Shown one piece after another: positions 52,710-64,000 of a DNA stretch of 64,000 nt. The DNA is from Photorhabdus khanii NC19 (GTDB taxonomy: Bacteria; Pseudomonadota; Gammaproteobacteria; Enterobacterales; Enterobacteriaceae), in NCBI RefSeq assembly GCF_000517265.1, contig NZ_AYSJ01000004.1, positions 486,278 to 550,277 on the forward strand, in the 5' to 3' direction. Made by a program: the position numbers and the translations under genes. Each line of letters starts with the position of its first letter. The stretch's first letter is position 1. The notes under the pieces were generated by a model, which ran no database searches, was not told where the DNA came from, and saw only the letters and a program-made list of their open reading frames with translations.

Positions 52710-53549
52710 ATGTTACATAAAATAGACAAAGCGCCATATTTTATTAAATTCTATAAATTCCATCTACAAGATCTCGTTTTCTCTTATAATATGAAAACAG
52801 AGTGGCATCACCATCCTTGCATACAATTAAGTGTATCACCACATAATTCACTCATGAAGATTGACACTGAAAATGAATCGAGACAAGCGCATGGATTCAT
52901 TATTTCTTCTAATATTAAACATAAATTACATTCAGAAGGACAACTCTGTTTTAATTTACTGATAGATCCAGCGAATCCCCTATATCATCTATTATCACAT
53001 CAGATGATGGGTTCAGATATAGTATATTTAAGCCAAGAATCATCCGATTTGATAGCCAACTATTTTATTAATTGTTTACAATCAGAAACCTCTCCAGATA
53101 TTTTTATCTTAAACAATCTGTTAGGTGAAATAGAAGACTGTCATTGTTATCAGGATAAACGGATCATGAAAGCAGCCTCTCTTATTACTGAATTACCCGT
53201 TAAATGTATATCTTCCCGTGAAATATCAGATCAACTCTATTTATCAGAAAGTCGGTTCTTACATCTATTTCGAGAAAAAATGGGGACTAATTTCCGTAGT
53301 TATCTATTATGGAAGCGCCTACATCATGCCATTAATGAGATACATTTATCTGACTCACTGACTTTATTAGCGTGTAATAGTGGATTTTCCGACAGTGCAC
53401 ATTTTAGTCGTACCTGTATGATGCTATATGGGTTAAGACCCTCTGAATTGAAAAATGCCAGTATGAACAGAACGCAACAATCACAACAAAAACAATCCAA
53501 TTTTTCATTAGCATTGGCGGATTTGAATTTTCCAAAGCAGAATATCTAA
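52710..53549 (+). CDS. AraC/XylS-family transcriptional regulator
   Basis: 279 residues. A degenerate N-terminal half (about 1-165, with a WHHHPCIQL cupin-like strand) and a C-terminal double HTH (about 170-268). The first HTH reads ISSREISDQLYLSESRFLHLF and the second contains LLACNSGFSDSAHFSRTC followed by the family motif YGLRPSEL. The ligand is unknown. It is the first gene of the acquired region, on the plus strand like the biosynthetic genes, with AAAGGA before the ATG, and is a reasonable candidate for controlling them. Confidence 0.85.
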   Translation: MLHKIDKAPYFIKFYKFHLQDLVFSYNMKTEWHHHPCIQLSVSPHNSLMKIDTENESRQAHGFIISSNIKHKLHSEGQLCFNLLIDPANPLYHLLSHQMMGSDIVYLSQESSDLIANYFINCLQSETSPDIFILNNLLGEIEDCHCYQDKRIMKAASLITELPVKCISSREISDQLYLSESRFLHLFREKMGTNFRSYLLWKRLHHAINEIHLSDSLTLLACNSGFSDSAHFSRTCMMLYGLRPSELKNASMNRTQQSQQKQSNFSLALADLNFPKQNI

Positions 53550-53783: not shown

Positions 53784-54869
53784 TCATTTTAATGATACAT
53801 GCTCTTTTAGATAATTTTCTACCCATTTAGCTACTCGACTTGTATCTTTATAAGCACCCAACATAAGTTCAGAACCACGGCTACTCAACCATTTCCGCCC
53901 GACAATAAATAACCCAGGATAAGGTGTTTTCCCACCTTCTTCATGCCCATTTTTACAAACGAATCCGTTAGCATCCGCAGCACCAGGAAGAGTTAACCAC
54001 ACCGTATTATCTTTATACCCCAAACACCAGATAACAGTATCGACCTCATATTGATTGCCAGACAAATCACATAAATTATTATCTTTTATATCAACTAATC
54101 TATTCGCTATTTTTATACCAAAAGCGGCTAACCGATGGTTTTTTAGCTCTCCACAAGGAATGGGATTACGCCGCCGCATGATTTTCCCTACCAAACTGTA
54201 ATAATTGGCAAACAACAGACCGCTTTTACTTAACCACCAAAAGATATCTTTGCCCATTATTCTATTAGGTAAGAGAGGACGGGAAGAACCACAAAATAAC
54301 GTCACCTTCGCAGTCGCCGCTAAATCTTTGGCAATCTGGCGACCACTGGCGCCATCACCAACAACAGCAACTCTGCTGCCTGCTTTAATTTGTTTAGGTT
54401 CCTGATACTTATCCGCACCAATTTGTTGTATATCAGCAGAAAGTTGCCCAGAAAGTACCGGAATATCAGCTAATTGATTAGCACCTGTTGCATTAACCAG
54501 ACAAAGTGCATTAAATACTTTCCCGTCTTTTGTTTTAACGCTATAGACATTTTTATCATGCTTCACTTCAACCACTTCAGTTTGAGTATGTATCGTCAGG
54601 TTATGGTGTGAAGCATAACGCTCAAGGTAATCAGCAACTTCATTCTTATCCGGATAGCCATCTTCAATTCCAGGAAATGGCAGGCCATGAAGCTGAGTCA
54701 TACCACGTGAAGTGAATAACAGCATATTATCAGGACGCCTGCGCCACACATCGCCAATACGCGTTTCTCGCTCTAATATGCAGACATTTATATTCTTAGC
54801 AGTGAGGATAGCAGCTAAACTTAATCCGGCTTGACCGGCACCCACAATTAAACAATCCATTTTCATCAT
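53784..54869 (-). CDS. FAD/NAD(P)-dependent flavoprotein monooxygenase-like protein (CzcO/FMO type)
   Basis: 361 residues. The FAD Rossmann loop GAGQAG is at residues 10-15 and a second nucleotide-binding loop GDGASG at 171-176, with ATG motifs (LVNATGANQ, VIWCLGYKDN) as in flavin-containing monooxygenases and related oxidoreductases. The C-terminal GLFIVGRKWLSSRGSELMLG carries the FAD-end motif. It probably oxidises a small molecule at N, S or C with NADPH. It is divergent from the acyl-activating operon, separated by a 391-base AT-rich spacer, and may tailor its product. The start is either of two adjacent ATGs. Confidence 0.8.
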   Translation of the reverse strand: MMKMDCLIVGAGQAGLSLAAILTAKNINVCILERETRIGDVWRRRPDNMLLFTSRGMTQLHGLPFPGIEDGYPDKNEVADYLERYASHHNLTIHTQTEVVEVKHDKNVYSVKTKDGKVFNALCLVNATGANQLADIPVLSGQLSADIQQIGADKYQEPKQIKAGSRVAVVGDGASGRQIAKDLAATAKVTLFCGSSRPLLPNRIMGKDIFWWLSKSGLLFANYYSLVGKIMRRRNPIPCGELKNHRLAAFGIKIANRLVDIKDNNLCDLSGNQYEVDTVIWCLGYKDNTVWLTLPGAADANGFVCKNGHEEGGKTPYPGLFIVGRKWLSSRGSELMLGAYKDTSRVAKWVENYLKEHVSLK

Positions 54870-55260: not shown

Positions 55261-56439
55261 ATGGAAAATATCAAAAATATATATGATGGTATAAAATCCC
55301 GTGGTGGCAATCCGCTGAAATGGTTAATGGCAGATGTCGACTTTCTCTATAAGCTGTCTAAAGAAGAACAACAAGAACTAAAAACCTGTCTACTTAAGGA
55401 TGCTTTTCATTTTCATTATCATAATAATCCTTACTATAGAGATATTTGTGAGAAACAAGGTATTAAGCTAGAAGATATCCAGGGTTATAATGATTTAGTT
55501 CGCATCCCACTAATACCCGTTGCAACTTATAAATCAGCCGAAAGTCATCGTTTATTAAGCAAACCACTGTCTGAAATCGAACATGAAATGCGTTCAACCG
55601 GTACAAGCGGAATTCCCAGCGTTTATCGTCGTTGCCACGATACGATGGATCACACAGTATTGGCTGTTTATTCTAATTACCGCAGCATGTTCAAATTATC
55701 TGGTGGTGCAGGCCTATGCTTATGTCCTTCAACAGAAGATATTCCAGAAATGGCACTGGTTAAGATATTTAATTTCCTGACAGGTTTGTTAGATACCCGA
55801 CGCTATATGATTAATCAGGATCGTTTTTCCCCAGAAGACACACTGAATCAATTAATCCAGTGGAAAGGTAAATTCACCCGGCATTTAATTGGCCCGCCAT
55901 TCATGATCCATCGTTTTATTACTTTCTTAAAAGAGAATAACACCAGACTCACTTTAGATCGCGATAGTATGGTGATTACGATGGGCGGCTGGAAACGTTT
56001 TTCCGGGGATATGATCTCCCGCGGCGAATTAAATGCAGATATCGAAGAATGGATGGGAATTCCAGTATCCCGAACACGTGATATGTATGGTCTGGTTGAA
56101 GCAAACGTTCTCGCCATAGAAGATGAATATAACCATAAGCATGTTCCTCCTTATATTCACTTCTCCGTCCGTGATCCTAATGATTTATCACGTGAACTAC
56201 CTGATGGCGAAACAGGGCAATTGGTGATCCTAGATCCACTTTCTGTTTCCACCCCAGGTATGTTACTGACAGAAGATTTGGTCTACTTGCGTACCGACCC
56301 TAACAAATCCTGGCGTAATTCTCAGCGGATTCAGTTTGTTATGCGTACTGCTGCCGCTAAAGAGTTTGGTTGTTGTGCAGTCAACCTTGAGAGAAAAATG
56401 TCAGATGATGAAACTGCCCCAGCTACATCCGCAGTATAA
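55261..56439 (+). CDS. LuxE-like acyl-activating enzyme (acyl-protein synthetase family)
   Basis: 392 residues, LuxE/acyl-protein synthetase branch of the ANL superfamily. ATP loop STGTSGIPS at 112-120, GPPFM at 211-215, GGWKRF at 242-247 and YGLVEAN at 276-282; no separate C-terminal AMP-binding subdomain, as in LuxE. Two adjacent Cys (C371, C372) near the C-terminus sit where LuxE carries its acylated Cys. The expected chemistry is activation of an acyl chain as acyl-AMP and then transfer to a Cys on the enzyme or to a partner. It is not followed by luxC, luxD, luxA or luxB. The start at 55261 has GGAG about 10 bases upstream. The IscU-like gene follows 16 bases after. Confidence 0.8.
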   Translation: MENIKNIYDGIKSRGGNPLKWLMADVDFLYKLSKEEQQELKTCLLKDAFHFHYHNNPYYRDICEKQGIKLEDIQGYNDLVRIPLIPVATYKSAESHRLLSKPLSEIEHEMRSTGTSGIPSVYRRCHDTMDHTVLAVYSNYRSMFKLSGGAGLCLCPSTEDIPEMALVKIFNFLTGLLDTRRYMINQDRFSPEDTLNQLIQWKGKFTRHLIGPPFMIHRFITFLKENNTRLTLDRDSMVITMGGWKRFSGDMISRGELNADIEEWMGIPVSRTRDMYGLVEANVLAIEDEYNHKHVPPYIHFSVRDPNDLSRELPDGETGQLVILDPLSVSTPGMLLTEDLVYLRTDPNKSWRNSQRIQFVMRTAAAKEFGCCAVNLERKMSDDETAPATSAV

Positions 56440-56455
56440 ATAGCAAGGTGGAATT

Positions 56456-56812
56456 ATGTTTAACAACATCATTATTGACAACTTTTGCAATCCTGACTGC
56501 CAGGGGACGTTATCCAGCCCGGCAATTAAACTGGCGTTAGGCAATCCTGTCTGTGGTGACAAGGTTGATATCGACCTGACACTGGATAGTCAAGGGCGGG
56601 TAAATAATGCCTGTTTCCGCGCATGGGGATGCACAGCATCCCTAGCAATGTCGAACCAGTTTTGTCGCCATGTTAAAGGTAAGACTCTCAAAGAATTGAA
56701 CACATTATCACCTGAAGGCATTGATGCGTTATTAGGTGAGTTAGAACCCGCCCAGCAACACTGCCTTGATATGCTGCATAAGCTATTTGAGCAGTTAAAG
56801 GGAAAAATATGA
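56456..56812 (+). CDS. IscU/NifU-type Fe-S or sulfur scaffold protein
   Basis: 118 residues, IscU_N fold. The three cluster-ligand cysteines are present: C33 (GNPVCGDKVDI with the adjacent Asp35), C59 (AWGCTAS) and C103 (QQHCLDM). Extra cysteines (C11, C15, C53, C70) are unusual for IscU. It lacks the LPPVK motif that HscA recognises in IscU, so it probably works without the Hsc chaperones. It is translationally coupled to the cysteine desulfurase (ATGA), so the pair likely moves sulfur from Cys to a dedicated target, either a cluster or a product. Confidence 0.85.
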   Translation: MFNNIIIDNFCNPDCQGTLSSPAIKLALGNPVCGDKVDIDLTLDSQGRVNNACFRAWGCTASLAMSNQFCRHVKGKTLKELNTLSPEGIDALLGELEPAQQHCLDMLHKLFEQLKGKI

Positions 56813-57999
56813 CAAGCCTATACTTCGATTACAACGCCACGACACCGCTAAGTGTTAAAGCCCAGTTGGCGATTAAAGAGGCTTTGTCTGTTTTTGCTAA
56901 TCCGTCCAGCCACTACAGCTTAAGTAACATGGCTAAAAATTTGCTCACTGACGCCAGGAGATCTATGGCGTCATTAATGGGCACTGTGCCTGAACAAATC
57001 CTGTTTACATCAGGAGGAACCGAAAGTAATAACCAGGCATTGTCCAGCCTGTTAGCAACGCTTCCCGGTTCGGATCTGTCTGCATATCATGTTATTAGCT
57101 CTTCTATTGAGCACCCGTCTGTTCTAGCGCCGTTACTCTGGTACCAGCAACGCGGACTTCAACTGACGCTGATCGATCCTGATAATCAGGGGCGGATAAG
57201 TGTACAAAGCATCCGTGAAAACCTGCGGCCACAAACACGCCTGATCACATTGATGGCGATTAACAACGAAACCGGAGTGATACAGCCCTATGAAGCTGTC
57301 GCCTCTTTAGCAAAAGAGGCTGGTATCTATTTACACATAGATGCAGTACAGGCTATTGGTAAACTTCCTTTTAGCTGTGACACGCTTTCTGGCATAACGA
57401 CTGTCTCTTTCTCCGGCCATAAGTTTAATGGCCCAAAAGGTATCGGTGGGCTCTATCATGCGCTAGGTATTCAATTGAACCCCTTGCTGCACGGTGGCGG
57501 ACAAGAACAAGGAATACGCAGCGGCACTGAAAACACTCTGGGCCTTGCAGGACTGGCGGCGGCAGCTAAAGAATCACTGAATGGATTGCAAGAACATTTC
57601 AATACCTACAAAACGCTCAGAGAAACCTTGCTATCTCTGCTGGAACAGCACCATGTTAGCTACTTAATTAATGGCAATACAAACCCAGAATTTCAGGCAC
57701 CCTGGACACTGAATTTAAGTTTCCCTGGCGTCCGCGCTGAATCATTAGCCAGCCGGCTGGATTTATGTCACGGAGTCTCTTTATCTTTAGGATCAGCCTG
57801 TAGCAATAACAAATCTACACAACGTTCTCATGTTCTGGCGGCGATGGGGCTACCTAATGATCGTATCGATAGCGCAGTACGTATCAGCTTTGGATATACC
57901 ACAAGCCAAAATGATATTGAGATGCTGGCTAGCGCGATCAAACAAGAAACGTATAACTTGCTGAAAATTTCTGGGCAACCTTTAAACACTCAGGAATAA
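56809..57999 (+). CDS. NifS/IscS-like cysteine desulfurase
   Basis: 396 residues, class V aminotransferase fold, PLP enzyme. YFDYNATTP at the N-terminus, SGGTESNN (phosphate binding, 68-75), H102, D178 in HIDAVQ, PLP K205 in SFSGHKFNGPKG, and the persulfide Cys C331 in GSACSNNKSTQRSHVL with the long flexible loop of group I (NifS/IscS). It removes sulfur from cysteine to form an enzyme persulfide. It overlaps the IscU-like gene by four bases. The usual isc partners (iscR, iscA, hscBA, fdx) are missing, so this is not the housekeeping system. Confidence 0.9.
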   Translation: MTSLYFDYNATTPLSVKAQLAIKEALSVFANPSSHYSLSNMAKNLLTDARRSMASLMGTVPEQILFTSGGTESNNQALSSLLATLPGSDLSAYHVISSSIEHPSVLAPLLWYQQRGLQLTLIDPDNQGRISVQSIRENLRPQTRLITLMAINNETGVIQPYEAVASLAKEAGIYLHIDAVQAIGKLPFSCDTLSGITTVSFSGHKFNGPKGIGGLYHALGIQLNPLLHGGGQEQGIRSGTENTLGLAGLAAAAKESLNGLQEHFNTYKTLRETLLSLLEQHHVSYLINGNTNPEFQAPWTLNLSFPGVRAESLASRLDLCHGVSLSLGSACSNNKSTQRSHVLAAMGLPNDRIDSAVRISFGYTTSQNDIEMLASAIKQETYNLLKISGQPLNTQE

Positions 58000-58118
58000 C
58001 AGCAAAACTGTATTTAAAAGACGGTGTAGCAGGAATAACTTATTTATTAACCACTAATACCCATATTACTGCACTTAAGCTCCGCCAACATTTTTTTAGA
58101 TTTTAAGGGGATATTAAT

Positions 58119-58355
58119 ATGAAACTGTTTGAATTATTGCAATCTCAAATTACTGAATTAACTGACATCGAAGCAGAAGATATTACTCTCGATACCCTGC
58201 TTGATGATATTCATCTGGTAAGTCTGGATTTTGTCTCTATTCAGGTTGCTTTAAAAAGAGAAATGGGTATTCAGCTGAATTTCGATAAATTCCAGCGAAA
58301 TGAAACAACGACAATCGGTGATTTTGTCAATTATGTCAGTGAATTAATAAAATAA
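58119..58355 (+). CDS. Acyl carrier protein (atypical, VSL instead of DSL)
   Basis: 78 residues, acidic four-helix carrier. The predicted phosphopantetheine Ser is S35 in IHLVSLDFVSIQ; the canonical Asp before it (DSL) is Val. The rest of helix II (SLDFVSIQVALKREMGI) aligns with SLDxVELxxxLExEFxI. AAGGGGAT precedes the ATG. It is 119 bases after the cysteine desulfurase and followed by a hairpin before the ketosynthase. No phosphopantetheinyl transferase is present in the visible cluster, so it would rely on one elsewhere. Confidence 0.85.
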   Translation: MKLFELLQSQITELTDIEAEDITLDTLLDDIHLVSLDFVSIQVALKREMGIQLNFDKFQRNETTTIGDFVNYVSELIK

Positions 58356-58374
58356 TCATTATTAATGTATTTGG

Positions 58375-58421
58375 ATGTTAGCTGTCTATGACATATCACA
58401 GCATGGCTAACATTCATTTTT
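58375..58421 (+). terminator. Hairpin between the ACP and ketosynthase genes (attenuator or terminator)
   Basis: ATGTTAGC (58375-58382) pairs with GCTAACAT (58406-58413); the loop side holds partial pairing TGT...ACA. The stem is followed by TCATTTTT. It could uncouple ACP expression from the downstream genes. Confidence 0.4.
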
Positions 58422-58509
58422 GTGATGCTTTTATCTACCAACCCCATTATTTGGTTGTATTAAAAAATAAAGCATGTCACCAGGAACTTACCTTTGGAGA
58501 TAATGTTTC

Positions 58510-59775
58510 ATGAATTTTCAAACTGGCTACCGCCGCGTTGCCATCACAGGCTATGGCTCTATCTGTTCTCTTGGGCAAAATACCCAGGAAATTTGGGATG
58601 CAATCCTAAACTATCGTGTAGGCTACAAAAAGGACGTTCACCCAGATGCTTCTGTCGCAGCAAAATTCTTCGGCAATATACCTTTTCCTCCTGATGTATC
58701 ACGGTTTTCCAAAAAACTGCTAAAGAACCTTCCCAAATTCAGCAAACTTGGGCTGATTGCTGCGGATGAAGCAATCAAAATGGCATTTGGTCACGATAAA
58801 GCTGCTCTTGATGAAAGTTATTCCCCTTTTGAACGAGGTGTCATTTTTGGTACTGGCTGGGGAGGAGAAGATGCAACCGTCGAAAACAGCAATTCCTACG
58901 CTGACCAAGGTATTGCCTCACCCATGACAAATATTATGTCTATGCACAGCGTAGGTACGGCGGCTATTTCAATGAACTGGAATCTACGGGGATATCAGAA
59001 TACCCCAGTGGCAGCTTGTGCAACAGGCAGTATGGCAATAGGTGATGCTTTTGAACTTATCCGTAGCGGACGCACTAAAATGATGCTGGCAGGGGGCGGT
59101 GAAAGTATCAGAGATCCATTCATCGTCTGGAGCATCGATATTCTTGGCGCACTGAGCAAAGAACAGGAATCTGTCGAAAAAGCTTGCTGTCCGTTCAGCA
59201 AAGATCGCAGTGGCTTTGTGATGTCAGAAGGTGCAGCAATATTATGTCTTGAAGATTATGACAGTGCTGTTGCCAGAGGAGCCAAAATACTGGCGGAAGT
59301 CGTCGGTTATGGAAATTACTCTGACGCATCAGATATGACAGCACCGGCACCAGATTGCCAAGGACGGGTTATGGCAATTCAGGCGGCACTGGAACAGGCT
59401 AAACTCTCCGCGTCAGATATTCACTATATCAATGCCCACGGCACATCAACCCCGTTAAACGACATTAACGAAACCGATGTTTTAAAAATGAGCCTGGGAG
59501 AACACGCCTACTGTATTCCTACTTCCAGTACAAAATCCTACACAGGCCATCTTATTGCCGGGGCAGGGGCAATTGAGTCCATTTTCTGTATTAAGGCAAT
59601 GGAAACCGCAACTATTCCCGCGACTATGCACTTGAATAATCCTGATCCACTCTGCGATCTGGATTACGTACCCAACACCCACCGAACTAACCAAGTTATT
59701 GATACTGCTTTAAATGTTAACTATGGATTCGGTGGCACAAACTGTGCACTTATTTTCAGGAAAGCCGACAGATGA
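58510..59775 (+). CDS. Beta-ketoacyl-ACP synthase (FabF/KS-alpha type)
   Basis: 421 residues, thiolase-fold KS. Catalytic triad C170 (VAACATGSMAIGDA), H310 (NAHGTSTPLND) and H347 (KSYTGHLIAGAGA), with the adjacent K342. It condenses an acyl starter with malonyl-ACP. It carries the KS residues of FabF and the C-terminal GFGGTNCALIF loop. There is no acyltransferase or chain-length factor in the cluster, so malonyl-ACP must come from host FabD. It is translationally coupled to the MaoC-like gene (stop/start overlap). GGAG is present before the start. Confidence 0.9.
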   Translation: MNFQTGYRRVAITGYGSICSLGQNTQEIWDAILNYRVGYKKDVHPDASVAAKFFGNIPFPPDVSRFSKKLLKNLPKFSKLGLIAADEAIKMAFGHDKAALDESYSPFERGVIFGTGWGGEDATVENSNSYADQGIASPMTNIMSMHSVGTAAISMNWNLRGYQNTPVAACATGSMAIGDAFELIRSGRTKMMLAGGGESIRDPFIVWSIDILGALSKEQESVEKACCPFSKDRSGFVMSEGAAILCLEDYDSAVARGAKILAEVVGYGNYSDASDMTAPAPDCQGRVMAIQAALEQAKLSASDIHYINAHGTSTPLNDINETDVLKMSLGEHAYCIPTSSTKSYTGHLIAGAGAIESIFCIKAMETATIPATMHLNNPDPLCDLDYVPNTHRTNQVIDTALNVNYGFGGTNCALIFRKADR

Positions 59776-60587
59776 ACGTTCAATTCAGTAAAAAAGATCT
59801 CAGTCAATGGGCTAAATTCTCTGGAGATTATAACCCCATTCATTTTGATGAAAAAATTGCAAAAGAAGTCGGATTAGGCGGTATTGCCGTACACGGTATG
59901 CTGGCAATGATCCCGCTCAAAAGCGGATACGATTACCTGTCACAACCAAACGAGGGAATGGGCAGACAATGGCACGTTAATTTGCGAAATCCAGTGCCTC
60001 TGAATGCCTGCTATTGTGTCAAAACTAAGCACACTGACCTGAATGGGAAAACGGCCTTTAATCTGCAAGATGAAACAACCAGCTTGAAACCTTTGGTTGG
60101 TCATTATAGTCGTTTCGATTTTTCGAAAAAAACCGGCTTTCCTGAAAAACCACAGTGTCAAGTTCCGATACAAGAGACAATAAAAAAATCCATTGAATTC
60201 AAAAGCACCTTCCCCGAAGTCAATGAGTTCTGGATTTTTCTTGATGCCCTGATTTTTTATCTTTTCATGCAGCAAAGTGCAAAAACGGCACTAGCAACGG
60301 AATTTAAAACCTATTTCGGCAAACAGGGGCATGATGAAATATGCCTCAAAGACCTTATTGTGTTGCATGTTATGCATACAGTGAGTTTTTCTCCAACCCT
60401 GCTCAATCGCCAAATCCCGGATGAAATGCCAAGCATCGAATATACGATCCTACCTAAAGATACATTCGATGTTGATGGTTCGTTATACGGTACGTTGGAA
60501 ATCCCGATCTGGCTGAATGGAGAAATCTCTTTAGTTGTTGAAATGAGTCTGATGGGAACAACAAAAAGAAAGCAGGTTGCCAACTAA
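59772..60587 (+). CDS. MaoC-like (R)-hydratase/dehydratase, possible double hotdog
   Basis: 271 residues. The N-terminal hotdog has the hydratase-2 motif SGDYNPIHFD (D19, N21, H24) and GIAVHGMLAM, the active-site set of (R)-specific enoyl hydratases. Its C-terminal half (about 150-271) has a long helix (FWIFLDALIFYLFMQQSAK) and strands (GTLEIPIWLNGEISLVVEMS) that look like a second, degenerate hotdog; the second catalytic site appears absent. It would dehydrate beta-hydroxyacyl-ACP. It overlaps the KS gene by four bases. Confidence 0.82.
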   Translation: MNVQFSKKDLSQWAKFSGDYNPIHFDEKIAKEVGLGGIAVHGMLAMIPLKSGYDYLSQPNEGMGRQWHVNLRNPVPLNACYCVKTKHTDLNGKTAFNLQDETTSLKPLVGHYSRFDFSKKTGFPEKPQCQVPIQETIKKSIEFKSTFPEVNEFWIFLDALIFYLFMQQSAKTALATEFKTYFGKQGHDEICLKDLIVLHVMHTVSFSPTLLNRQIPDEMPSIEYTILPKDTFDVDGSLYGTLEIPIWLNGEISLVVEMSLMGTTKRKQVAN

Positions 60588-60645
60588 GGTTTGATGAATT
60601 CTGTACTGACAGACGGATGGCATAAAAATTTAGAGGAATAACTTA

Positions 60646-61389
60646 ATGAATATCAACGCACCTTGGGTTTTTGTTTCGGGAGGATCACGTGGCATTGGCA
60701 AAGGCATAGTAAAAATGCTGGCTGCGCAAAACTACCATGTGGTTTTTACCTACAAATCAAGCATAGATGAAGCGCAAACACTTTGTCAGGAAATTAAGCA
60801 GCAAGGTCACAGTTGTGAAGGCCATCAATGTGATGTCTCAAACGCGAAAGAAGTCTCAACACTGTCGGCAGAGCTTATCTCACGGTATGGCTCTCCCTAT
60901 GCAATCATCAATAACGCCGGAATTACACAAGATGCTTTGCTGATAAACATGAAAGAAGAAGAATGGCACAACGTGATTTCCACCAATCTTTCTTCTGTTT
61001 ATTTAGTCAATCACGCTTTTCTCCCTGAAATGATTATGTCTGGAGAAGGCTGCATCATCCACATGAGCTCGGTCACTGCATTTAAAGCTAACTCAGGGCA
61101 AGTTAACTACGCAGCAACCAAAGCCGCAATGATCGGTATTACCCGCTCATTAGCTGTTGAAGTTGGCCGATTTAATGTTCGGGTCAATACCGTTGCACCA
61201 GGCTTGATTGATACTGAAATGCTGAATCATATTCCAGCATCACATAGGAAAAAACTGTTATCTAACATCCCATTGGGCCGCTTGGGTTCAGTAGAAGATA
61301 TTGCCATGACTATCAATTTCCTCCTCAGCCCCGGAGGACGCTACATTACCGGGCAAACATTCGTCATTGATGGCGGAATGACGGCCTGA
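60646..61389 (+). CDS. 3-oxoacyl-ACP reductase (FabG-like SDR)
   Basis: 247 residues, classical SDR. NADPH loop SGGSRGIGKG (about 11-20), NNAGIT, N114, and catalytic S142/Y155/K159 (SSVTAFKANSGQVNYAATK), with APGLIDTEM and the C-terminal GQTFVIDGGM. It reduces beta-ketoacyl-ACP to hydroxyacyl-ACP, completing a KS-KR-DH set. GAGGAA precedes the ATG. It is 58 bases after the MaoC-like gene and last of the acyl set. No enoyl reductase is present, so unsaturated products are possible, or host FabI may act. Confidence 0.92.
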   Translation: MNINAPWVFVSGGSRGIGKGIVKMLAAQNYHVVFTYKSSIDEAQTLCQEIKQQGHSCEGHQCDVSNAKEVSTLSAELISRYGSPYAIINNAGITQDALLINMKEEEWHNVISTNLSSVYLVNHAFLPEMIMSGEGCIIHMSSVTAFKANSGQVNYAATKAAMIGITRSLAVEVGRFNVRVNTVAPGLIDTEMLNHIPASHRKKLLSNIPLGRLGSVEDIAMTINFLLSPGGRYITGQTFVIDGGMTA

Positions 61390-61702: not shown

Positions 61703-62890
61703 ATGGCCGAAGAAATAGAATCAGTTCCAGTACAATCACCTCCGCTTAATGAGAAAAAATCAAAGCGAAAGCTAGCATTGATCCTCGCAACTCTTTTATT
61801 TGTTTTTGCCGGATTAGGTTACTTTGCCTACTGGTTTGTTGCACTGCGCTATCATCAAGCGACTGATGATGCCTACGTTGTCGGTAATCAGGTGCAAGTG
61901 ATGACCCAAATTACTGGTAGCGTAACGTCTATCCATGTCGATAATACAGATTTCGTTCAACAAGGAGACATTCTGCTACGTTTAGACTCTGTTGATGCAG
62001 AACATGCTTTTGAACGGGCGAAAAATATATTGGCTAATAGTGTCAGACAAACTCACCAAACCATCATCGATAATGAAAAGCTGCTGGCTAATATTGAACT
62101 AAAACAGACTGCGCTACAGCAGGCTCAAGATGATTTAAAACGACGTGAACATCTGGGGCTCACCGGTGCTATTGCCAAAGAAAATCTGATTCATTCCCGT
62201 AATAGTGTTCAAATGGCAAAGTCTGAGCTGAACGTCGCCCAACAACAATATCATGCCAACAAAGCGTTAGTTATAGACACCCCATTGGAACAACAGCCCG
62301 CCATTAAACTCGCCGCTTCCCAACTCCGAGATGCATGGTTAACCTTACAGCGCACTCAGATTGCCGCGCCGGTGACCGGATACGTTTCACGCCGCAGTGT
62401 TCAGGTCGGTTCACAAATAAAAAGCGGTACCTCGCTGATGGTTATCGTACCGGCAGATCAACTCTGGGTCGAAGCTAACTTCAAAGAGGTTCAACTCGCC
62501 AATGTGCGTATTGGTCAGCCGGTAACGCTAATTAGCGATTTCTATGGCAATGATGTCATTTATCAAGGCCGAATCGTTGGTCTTGATATGGGAACCGGCA
62601 GTGCATTTTCTTTACTGCCGGCACAAAACGCCACCGGTAACTGGATCAAAGTGGTTCAACGTTTGCCTGTCCGTGTTGAACTGGAAGCACAACAACTTAT
62701 TGATCATCCTTTACGAATTGGTTTATCCATGCACGCCACTGTCGATACCAGAAATCAAGAGGGTTTGGTCCTTTCCGATACCCCCCGTAAAGGCATTGTT
62801 TATGAAACCAACGTCTTGTCTTACAACACCGGAGAAATTGATCGGCTAATTAACGAAATCATTCAAGCTAACAACAGTAAAGATGAGTGA
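61703..62890 (+). CDS. EmrA-type membrane fusion protein
   Basis: 395 residues, HlyD/EmrA family periplasmic adaptor. A cytoplasmic tail, a single TM helix (about 27-49), a lipoyl-like half reading ATDDAYVVGNQVQVMTQITG, a coiled-coil hairpin (about 110-200), the other lipoyl half (TQIAAPVTGYVSRRSVQVGS) and beta-barrel LWVEANFKEVQLANVRIGQP. It links an inner-membrane MFS exporter to a TolC-like channel. GGAGAGG lies just before the ATG. Under the MerR-type promoter and adjacent to the acyl cluster, it could export that product or give multidrug resistance. Confidence 0.9.
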   Translation: MAEEIESVPVQSPPLNEKKSKRKLALILATLLFVFAGLGYFAYWFVALRYHQATDDAYVVGNQVQVMTQITGSVTSIHVDNTDFVQQGDILLRLDSVDAEHAFERAKNILANSVRQTHQTIIDNEKLLANIELKQTALQQAQDDLKRREHLGLTGAIAKENLIHSRNSVQMAKSELNVAQQQYHANKALVIDTPLEQQPAIKLAASQLRDAWLTLQRTQIAAPVTGYVSRRSVQVGSQIKSGTSLMVIVPADQLWVEANFKEVQLANVRIGQPVTLISDFYGNDVIYQGRIVGLDMGTGSAFSLLPAQNATGNWIKVVQRLPVRVELEAQQLIDHPLRIGLSMHATVDTRNQEGLVLSDTPRKGIVYETNVLSYNTGEIDRLINEIIQANNSKDE

Positions 62891-62897
62891 GGTTAAC

Positions 62898-64000
62898 ATG
62901 CTAAAAGAGCCATTATCAGGAGCCAAACTTGGCTGGCTAACCCTGGCTTTAGCATTAGCCGCTTTTTTACAAATATTGGATCTGACCATTGCTAACGTTG
63001 CAATATCAACAATTGCCGGAGACTTGGGTTCCTCAGTATCGCAAGGCACCTGGGTAATTACTTCATTTGCTGTTGCTAACGCGATTTCTATTCCATTAAC
63101 AGGCTGGTTAGCCAAACGGTTTGGGGAAGTCCGGGTTTTCTTAATATCAATGCTATTGTTTGTCATAACCTCTTGGCTGTGTGGCATCTCCAATAGCCTG
63201 GAAATGCTGATCATTTCCCGCATTCTGCAAGGCATCTCAGCCGGACCAATCATGCCTCTTTCGCAAAGTTTGTTACTAAACAACTATCCTCCGTTAAAAC
63301 GCAATATGGCACTGGCATTGTGGTCAATGACTATCGTTGTCGCTCCGGTTTGTGGTCCAATACTCGGCGGTTGGATCAGTGACAGCTATCATTGGGGATG
63401 GATATTTCTCATCAACGTCCCGGTAGGCTTTGCCGCCATCGCTATCACTTGGATGTTGTTAAAAGATCGAGAAACTGAAATAAAGGTCAGGCCAATTGAT
63501 GCCGTAGGGCTTATTTTATTAGTCACCGGCGTCGGTTGTTTTCAGTTATTGCTTGATCGAGGCAAGGAACTTGACTGGTTCAACTCAACAGAGATTATTG
63601 CATTAGCGATTATCGCGGTTATTGCCGTGACTTTCCTGATCATCTGGGAACTGACCGACGATGATCCGATCATTGATTTATCACTCTTTAAATCACGCAA
63701 TTTTACTATTGGTACTTTATGTATCAGTTTGGCCTTTTTACTCCACATCGGTACCCTAGTTCTACAACCTCAGTTATTACAAATGGTCTTTGGTTATACT
63801 GCCACCTGGGCAGGGTTAGTTATGGCCCCATTAGGGATGGTTCCCATAATACTTGCTCCACTCATTGGCCGTTTCAGTTCAAAAATCGATATGCGTTATT
63901 TGGTTATGTTCAGCTTTATCGTTTTTGCCCTGTGCTTTTTTTGGCGAGCTCATACCTTCGAGCTGTCAATGGACTTTGCCACCGCGGCCTGGCCACAATT
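62898..64000 (+). CDS. EmrB-type DHA2-family MFS transporter (3' truncated by window)
   Basis: The frame opens at ATG 62898 (GGTTAAC upstream) seven bases after the emrA-like stop and runs off the window end (367 codons visible). DHA2/EmrB features: LQILDLTIANVAISTIAGDL in TM1 (the D-x-T-I-x-N-V-A-x-P/I pattern of 14-TM drug:H+ antiporters), RILQGISAGPIMPLSQSLLL, and motif C GPILGGWISDSYHWGWIFLINVP. It should pair with the EmrA-like protein and a TolC channel. Substrate unknown. Confidence 0.9.
   Translation, partial: MLKEPLSGAKLGWLTLALALAAFLQILDLTIANVAISTIAGDLGSSVSQGTWVITSFAVANAISIPLTGWLAKRFGEVRVFLISMLLFVITSWLCGISNSLEMLIISRILQGISAGPIMPLSQSLLLNNYPPLKRNMALALWSMTIVVAPVCGPILGGWISDSYHWGWIFLINVPVGFAAIAITWMLLKDRETEIKVRPIDAVGLILLVTGVGCFQLLLDRGKELDWFNSTEIIALAIIAVIAVTFLIIWELTDDDPIIDLSLFKSRNFTIGTLCISLAFLLHIGTLVLQPQLLQMVFGYTATWAGLVMAPLGMVPIILAPLIGRFSSKIDMRYLVMFSFIVFALCFFWRAHTFELSMDFATAAWPQ

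Follow-up and report, generated by a model that had tools for sequence, protein, structure and literature searches.

Thiocarboxylic acids are rare in natural products, and few routes to them are known; those described include the thioacid cassette PtmA3/PtmU4 of thioplatensimycin, as well as QbsL/QbsK, Pdt OrfJ/OrfI, and YtkG/YtkF (PMC6006322, cited here and below from part of its text). The attack of a persulfide on an adenylated carboxylate is an established route to protein thiocarboxylates (same part of PMC6006322). The photoxenobactins (pxb) of Photorhabdus and Xenorhabdus carry thiocarboxylic acid and dithioperoxoate termini (PMC9396620, likewise cited in part). Here we describe a gene cassette in a 64,000-nucleotide stretch (the window) of the 5.23-Mb genome of Photorhabdus khanii NC19, in which a LuxE-like protein is encoded together with an IscU-type scaffold and a NifS-type cysteine desulfurase. 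Bacteria of distant lineages carry the cassette as well; its probable role is to activate a chain resembling a fatty acid and to place sulfur on that chain. The reading that we prefer, with a probability of roughly 0.48 and thus slightly short of even odds, is that the cassette builds sulfur into an acyl compound through LuxE-bound thiocarboxylic acid formation and that the resulting small molecule is exported.

A first-pass annotation had placed seven adjacent plus-strand genes at 55261-61389 and assigned their products as LuxE-like, IscU, NifS, acyl carrier protein (ACP), ketosynthase (KS), MaoC, and FabG. The open reading frames turned out to be intact and closely packed, and Pfam agreed with every one of the assignments. 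These genes and the monooxygenase gene divergent from them are as follows.

53784..54869, minus strand: flavin-dependent monooxygenase, divergent from the operon (two GxGxxG-type nucleotide motifs)
55261..56439, plus strand: LuxE-like protein, probable acyl-adenylating and acyl-accepting (PF04443, 4.5e-38)
56456..56812, plus strand: IscU/NifU-type scaffold, probable sulfur relay (PF01592, 8e-20)
56809..57999, plus strand: NifS-type cysteine desulfurase (PF00266, 2.4e-57; TIGR03402, 1.1e-94, below its cutoff)
58119..58355, plus strand: ACP (PF00550, 7.1e-7; Ser in VSLDF)
58510..59775, plus strand: FabF-type KS, C-H-H intact (PF00109, 3.1e-32; PF02801, 3.1e-31; TIGR03150, 7.8e-117, below its cutoff)
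59772..60587, plus strand: MaoC-type hydratase/dehydratase (PF01575, 7e-13; D-x-N-x-x-H motif)
60646..61389, plus strand: FabG-type ketoreductase (PF13561, 4.3e-60; TIGR01830, 3.2e-79, below its cutoff; S-Y-K motif)

The LuxE-like gene probably starts at the ATG at 55261, with GGAG 8 nt upstream, although a longer frame from 55222 is possible. The IscU and NifS genes overlap by 4 bases, as do the KS and MaoC genes. The residues of the catalytic motifs are all intact: H102, D178, Q181, H204, K205, and C331 of NifS; C33, D35, C59, H102, and C103 of IscU; Cys-His-His of the KS; D-x-N-x-x-H of MaoC; S-Y-K of FabG; and the Ser of the ACP. No acyltransferase, thioesterase, or nonribosomal peptide synthetase (NRPS) was recognized among the ten window proteins scanned with Pfam and NCBIfam, the sole reductase being FabG-like, and here too the annotation was confirmed.

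We then compared 46 loci, namely, 43 from a species-genome collection, two from Priestia plasmids, and the window. The collection was scanned with an alignment of six LuxE-like proteins, and the genera recovered included Photorhabdus, Xenorhabdus, Photobacterium, Cellvibrio, Pseudomonas, Lysobacter, Azohydromonas, Pseudoduganella, Deefgea, Curvibacter, Actibacterium, Paenibacillus, Lysinibacillus, and Ectobacillus. The LuxE, IscU, and NifS genes were adjacent, in that order, in 45 of the 46 loci of Pseudomonadota and Bacillota; since the search patterns select this LuxE clade, the count measures linkage inside the clade. By contrast with it, the control set of 25 other LuxE-family loci (up to 1.5 kb on each side, four with a flank cut by a contig end) gave no IscU-like match and a single weak NifS match of 31 bits. 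Pairwise distances of LuxE, IscU, and NifS correlated at 0.917 to 0.926 across 31 loci, without correction for species relatedness. The one locus that departs from the arrangement, from a Granulosicoccaceae metagenome-assembled genome (L093, 8944-11066), has a shortened LuxE-like gene followed by a DDE_3 transposase gene, with neither IscU nor NifS in the stretch. In the Peribacillus locus (L085, 10568-12124), decay or a sequencing error has disrupted the frames of the IscU-like and NifS-like genes, which were counted as present; polyketide synthase (PKS) pieces, including a PKS-type KS piece, and an acyl-adenosine monophosphate (AMP) ligase gene follow them. In Xenorhabdus anantnagensis, the cassette is followed at a short distance by another gene for a NifS-like desulfurase (L066, 11216-12394).

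The other parts of the cassette were more variable. At the fixed homology-search thresholds on which these counts depend, an ACP was present in 39 of the 46 loci, a monooxygenase in 36, a fatty acyl-AMP ligase in 25, EmrA in 20, MaoC in 15, KS and FabG in 13 each, MMPL in 11, UbiU-like and UbiV-like proteins in 8 each, and an acyl-coenzyme A (CoA) dehydrogenase-like gene in 5. KS and FabG were found in all 13 Photorhabdus loci (the window included; FabG is cut in one) and in none of the 33 others, and MaoC in the 13 Photorhabdus loci and two Cellvibrio loci only. The Photorhabdus loci lack the fatty acyl-AMP ligase, which elsewhere usually stands with the ACP. Judged by these homology matches, the universal core is LuxE-IscU-NifS, and KS and FabG appear as a Photorhabdus plug-in. 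The seven-gene set as a conserved unit outside Photorhabdus is rejected on the 0/33 count at these thresholds. Thus, the seven-gene acyl and sulfur cassette proposed in the annotation stands as a conserved, exporter-linked unit inside Photorhabdus, while only part of it, with the three-gene core as the universal portion, is kept elsewhere.

The cassette is rare in genome samples. Among 392 genomes of the family, the matches with at least 66% identity came from five Photorhabdus genomes and two others; among 398 genomes of the phylum, we found the window's match and one of those two others, the remaining two matches being 31 to 32% identical. Priestia accounted for 14 of the 20 plasmid records listed (of 52 that matched), at 44 to 45% identity.

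The LuxE-like protein belongs to the LuxE superfamily (PF04443, 131.6 bits against a gathering threshold of 24.9), and its nearest solved relative is the LuxE structure 7xc6 (2.5e-33). That it is the luminescence LuxE is ruled out by its score with NF052244 (150.9 bits, cutoff of 550), and the lux operon sits elsewhere in the genome (C13), where LuxE stands with LuxC, an acyl transferase, and two luciferase-like genes. Numbered on the 405-residue frame from 55222, the protein carries a vicinal pair, C384-C385. C385 aligns with a Cys kept in all 31 other LuxE-family rows, including the genome's own luminescence LuxE (L002), and is presumably the equivalent of the acyl-accepting Cys of LuxE. The Cys-Cys pair is present in 45 of 46 clade rows (44 in the alignment, plus L069 read directly), L093 again being the exception. 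At the position of residue 384, the 31 other rows, which represent 27 distinct genes (four listed twice) after L128 and L132 were moved out as clade members, have 28 Gly, 3 Ser, and no Cys. The second Cys, C384, is on this alignment specific to the LuxE clade of the cluster. A third LuxE-family gene, present in the same genome (C6, L003/L134) and in Xenorhabdus (L133), has Ser-Cys at the conserved site.

The IscU-like protein is a member of the NifU_N family (PF01592, 71.7 bits, gathering threshold of 22) with its three Cys and one Asp ligands present. C33, D35, and C59 are kept in all 45 loci with the pair, and H102 and C103 are kept in 44 (one is truncated). Of the 45, 43 have Gln at position 100, versus Lys or Arg in all 11 outgroup sequences, which were inspected by eye. 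The score with the IscU model TIGR01999 was 50.3 bits, below the cutoff of 192.4, and the sequence EPAQQHC stands in place of LPPVKIHC of the genome's own IscU; the LPPVK motif is the site of the HscA chaperone on IscU. In the NifS-like protein, the six catalytic positions are kept in 44 or 45 of 45 loci, C331 in 44 (one truncated). With K205, H102, and C331 in place and a PF00266 score of 195 bits, it is a class V cysteine desulfurase by the usual marks, a pyridoxal phosphate Lys, a His, and a mobile-loop Cys. For the trees, 13 near-copies and L085 were removed from the 45 rows that have IscU and NifS, which left 31. The 31 IscU-like rows fell on one side of a branch with 11 IscU/NifU/SufU-type outgroups on the other (support, 97/96), and the 31 NifS-like rows were likewise separated from 10 outgroups (93/92), with long branches flagged in both. 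The genome's own IscU and IscS fall outside both groups, as do other class V homologues. The cluster pair represents extra copies, since the genome encodes another IscU, 28% identical, and five other desulfurase-like genes besides.

Within Photorhabdus, all 12 genomes searched, that of the window included, carry the LuxE-like protein, which is 94 to 97% identical in the 11 others (97% for the P. thracensis and P. tasmaniensis proteins); this suggests that the cassette has a general role in the genus. The order regulator-monooxygenase-LuxE-IscU-NifS-ACP-KS-MaoC-FabG is kept in 12 named Photorhabdus loci, one of them with the cut FabG. When 8 of these 12 were compared, the median ratio of nonsynonymous to synonymous substitution rates (dN/dS) for the seven genes and the monooxygenase ranged between 0.048 and 0.098, against 0.053 for the nearby ilvC, values that indicate purifying selection on all eight genes within the genus. 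The cut FabG is that of P. australis (L062, 14388-19132), which is shortened to 92 codons; EmrA is not in that stretch, and the frames that follow resemble the start of a Mu-type phage.

The flavin monooxygenase, whose nearest solved relatives (4usr, 4c5o, and 4a9w) are named monooxygenases, had been listed in the annotation, with an efflux pair, as a neighbor of the cluster. The link to an exporter was upheld, but the 36 of 46 loci that carry the monooxygenase place it, by homology, inside the unit and not merely beside it. Eight Bacillota loci (L086-L091, L094, and L096) contain a UbiU/UbiV-like pair, and seven of these lack the monooxygenase; L091 has both systems, and L080 (at a contig end) and L093 show neither. 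One or the other was found in 43 of the 46 loci. In the U32-family protein of the pair, C230, C233, C302, and C307 are kept in 8/8 loci; the one member tested matched UbiU at 4.3e-8, below the NCBIfam cutoff. In its partner, C56, C219, C232, and C236 are kept in the six of the eight loci that were aligned. The five fully aligned Bacilli sequences have the Cys pattern CXnC-X12-C-X3-C, and in those of two Clostridia the middle Cys gap is 14 and 15 residues long. Matches of the partner to UbiV were weak (0.0022 at best, in three of six members, below the NCBIfam cutoff), a profile comparison of the two proteins gave a probability of 62%, and the two members tested had no Pfam match. From this distribution, we infer that oxygenation is a usual step, with or without O2. 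The exchange of the monooxygenase and the UbiU/UbiV-like pair has a parallel in ubiquinone synthesis, where O2-dependent and O2-independent enzymes replace each other.

The window also contains a putative regulator and two exporter genes.

52710..53549, plus strand: AraC-family regulator, probably of the cluster (PF12833, 1.2e-16)
61703..62890, plus strand: EmrA-type export adaptor (NF011715, 1.3e-193, above its cutoff)
62883..64000, plus strand: EmrB-like major facilitator superfamily (MFS) exporter, cut by the window end (open frame, named from its length and homologues without a family search)

Homologues of the AraC-family protein are 87 to 97% identical in 12 Photorhabdus loci and 45 to 51% identical in eight Xenorhabdus loci and the Photobacterium locus. 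An EmrA homologue is present in 8/8 Xenorhabdus and 12/13 Photorhabdus loci (the window included); frames of 505 to 510 residues occupy the place of EmrB in 11 of the 12 named Photorhabdus loci, and a Xenorhabdus EmrB-like query matches at 71 to 74%. The exporter type adjoining the cassette (EmrAB, MMPL, MFS, or ATP-binding cassette) depends on the group, and a LolA-like domain or neighbor accompanies MMPL in L076 and L071, the two loci examined. A metallophore reading was considered for a zinc-transporter gene beside the Bacillota locus L088 and was rejected, since L089 has a transglutaminase-like gene at the matching place. Promoter-like sites in the window showed no excess over shuffled sequence (36 versus a mean of 36.1), and terminator-like sites were somewhat commoner (14 versus a mean of 9.7; standard deviation, 3.2), and neither was therefore used.

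Sets resembling the Photorhabdus elongation genes also occur away from LuxE. A Kosakonia cowanii plasmid (L107, 7477-10530) carries ACP-KS-MaoC-FabG in the same order, followed by hydrolase and methyltransferase genes, with no LuxE annotated nearby; identity to the window proteins is 59% for KS, 49% for FabG, 36% for ACP, and 24% for MaoC. A KS-MaoC-ACP set also occurs on Serratia plasmids; in the one of 12 that was inspected, from S. proteamaculans (L106, 6740-9067), it stands without LuxE. These occurrences support the view that ACP-KS-MaoC-FabG is an independent module. MaoC used as a marker retrieved only the window's own gene in 398 sampled genomes at 1e-20.

Under the reading that we prefer, the Photorhabdus KS, FabG, and MaoC would, judging by their families, lengthen and modify an acyl chain carried by the cluster ACP, and the LuxE-like protein would convert a carboxylate to acyl-AMP. 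The NifS-like protein would transfer cysteine sulfur as a persulfide on C331 to the IscU-like protein acting as a sulfur relay, in keeping with the residues observed in both. The persulfide would then reach the Cys-Cys pair of LuxE and attack the acyl-adenylate, and the second Cys would free the acyl thiocarboxylic acid. Thiocarboxylate formation of the ThiI/MoeB type offers a comparison for such a Cys-Cys release. The flavin monooxygenase might oxidize the product, perhaps at sulfur, which would give an acylsulfenic acid, although this step is speculative; EmrA and EmrB would export the product, and the AraC-family protein would regulate the cluster. A more specific form of the reading is tentative and, taken as a whole, rather unlikely. 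The cassette, spread across phyla, would then use an IscU-type scaffold, recruited from iron-sulfur (Fe-S) biogenesis, as a dedicated natural-product sulfur relay to a LuxE-type enzyme making thiocarboxylic acids through the vicinal Cys-Cys, with subsequent oxygenation by the flavin monooxygenase in most loci or an O2-independent UbiU/UbiV-like pair in several Bacillota, yielding a family of oxidized acyl-sulfur metabolites, such as acylsulfenic acid. The composition of the cassette, its linkage, and its residues are observed; every catalytic step and the product are inferred.

The conserved cluster ligands of the IscU-like protein would also suit a NifS/IscU pair whose task is to assemble an Fe-S cluster for an enzyme encoded in or near the gene cluster, with the acyl chemistry being free of sulfur. 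The UbiU/UbiV-like pair of the eight Bacillota loci, the cysteines of which are conserved as well, could be such a recipient, the UbiU/UbiV type being one that binds [4Fe-4S] (PMC6747719, cited in part). However, of the 45 loci with the IscU/NifS pair, just 8 have a candidate Fe-S enzyme, and when the ten window proteins were scanned, only the IscU-like protein gave an Fe-S family as its best assignment. In addition, LPPVK is replaced in the IscU-like protein, and a separate IscU and IscS are encoded in the genome. Because the pair is kept in most loci without a recognized Fe-S enzyme, we consider this explanation unlikely, and the dedicated Fe-S step entertained in the annotation has lost ground accordingly. 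A little more doubtful is the addition of sulfur on the chain itself, with LuxE only priming the chain; an alpha,beta-unsaturated acyl-ACP produced by MaoC might, for instance, be converted in this way to a thiol, thiolactone, or disulfide. By their families, the Photorhabdus KS, FabG, and MaoC would give an unsaturated acyl-ACP, and LuxE could charge the ACP, the gene of which overlaps that of LuxE by four bases in Priestia. Yet LuxE-IscU-NifS is retained in 32 of the 33 loci without KS and FabG, so the sulfur step seems independent of that chain, and the clade-specific Cys beside the conserved one points to LuxE itself. We regard as improbable, and as the weakest candidate, a sulfur-free modified lipid or polyene with the desulfurase pair serving another acceptor, such as tRNA or a cofactor. 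The MMPL-type exporter genes in 11 of the 46 loci, often exporters of lipids, would fit such a product, but in 45 of the 46 loci the pair comes immediately after LuxE, with which it covaries, and no tRNA- or cofactor-thiolation gene was recognized among the selected neighbors scanned.

Several observations weigh against thiocarboxylic acid formation on LuxE as we propose it. A free acid would be the expected substrate of the LuxE-like protein, yet no thioesterase that would free one from the ACP was recognized, and neither an ACP nor an acyl-AMP ligase was matched by homology in five Bacillota loci (L086-L090). The distance correlation ignores species kinship, and the loci were chosen by LuxE-clade patterns. 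The grouping of the NifS-like proteins is the weaker of the two, and its long outgroup branches qualify it further. The IscU-like protein keeps cluster ligands that a pure sulfur relay does not strictly need; the Zn-dependent relay SufU keeps similar ligands. Finally, the Photobacterium locus L071 has neither the monooxygenase nor the UbiU/UbiV-like pair, so oxidation is not obligatory.

If the preferred reading is true, a compact, portable sulfur cassette of three genes, scaffold and desulfurase included, would constitute a new route, and an IscU-type protein would have a job other than Fe-S assembly. Compounds that NRPS/PKS mining can miss could then also be sought by genome mining for a CC-bearing LuxE beside an IscU that carries Q-x-H-C.

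The annotation had recognized no described pathway of this composition, and we likewise found no biosynthetic cluster with LuxE, IscU, and NifS in the listed titles and abstract openings of the open-licence literature, although absence is not proven thereby; a term search of the main text of a Xenorhabdus/Photorhabdus cluster survey gave no LuxE, cysteine desulfurase, ilvC, or MaoC (PMC9177418). The pxb pathway is a PKS/NRPS system with cysteine-derived sulfur and a proposed cleavage off-loading, and the cited part of PMC9396620 names no LuxE, IscU, or NifS. The Bacillota U32 protein and its partner resemble UbiU/UbiV in that the partner has the CXnC-X12-C-X3-C pattern reported for UbiV (in the cited part of PMC6747719), but sequence similarity is weak and the Cys spacing of the U32 protein is unlike that of UbiU. 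The LuxE of the genome's own luxCDABE operon (L002/L053) shares PF04443, the conserved Cys, and 29 to 30% identity with the cluster LuxE, which has CC instead of GC and no LuxC, LuxD, or luciferase gene beside it. Sulfenicin, an acylsulfenic acid attributed to Xue et al. in 2025, is reportedly made with a flavin-dependent S-hydroxylase acting on a thiocarboxylic acid; its cluster is a different one, from Streptomyces. With IscU/NifU/SufU and IscS/NifS, the cluster pair has in common the NifU_N family, the C-D-C-H-C residues, and the desulfurase catalytic residues; it differs from them in its separate tree groups, Gln in place of Lys or Arg before HC, its LuxE neighbor, and scores below the NCBIfam equivalog cutoffs of the IscU, NifU, SufU, NifS, and IscS models. 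A PtmU4-like type III CoA-transferase beside an acyl-CoA synthetase had no match among the ten window proteins (for two of them, among the best 25 NCBIfam families). Both PtmA3/PtmU4, a type common to different pathways, and the cassette described here would be small exchangeable modules that activate a carboxylate and add sulfur to it. PtmA3/PtmU4 consists of an acyl-CoA synthetase and a type III CoA-transferase with sulfur-carrier proteins as the donor (cited part of PMC6006322), whereas the Photorhabdus cluster combines a LuxE-type protein with an IscU-type scaffold and a cysteine desulfurase of its own.

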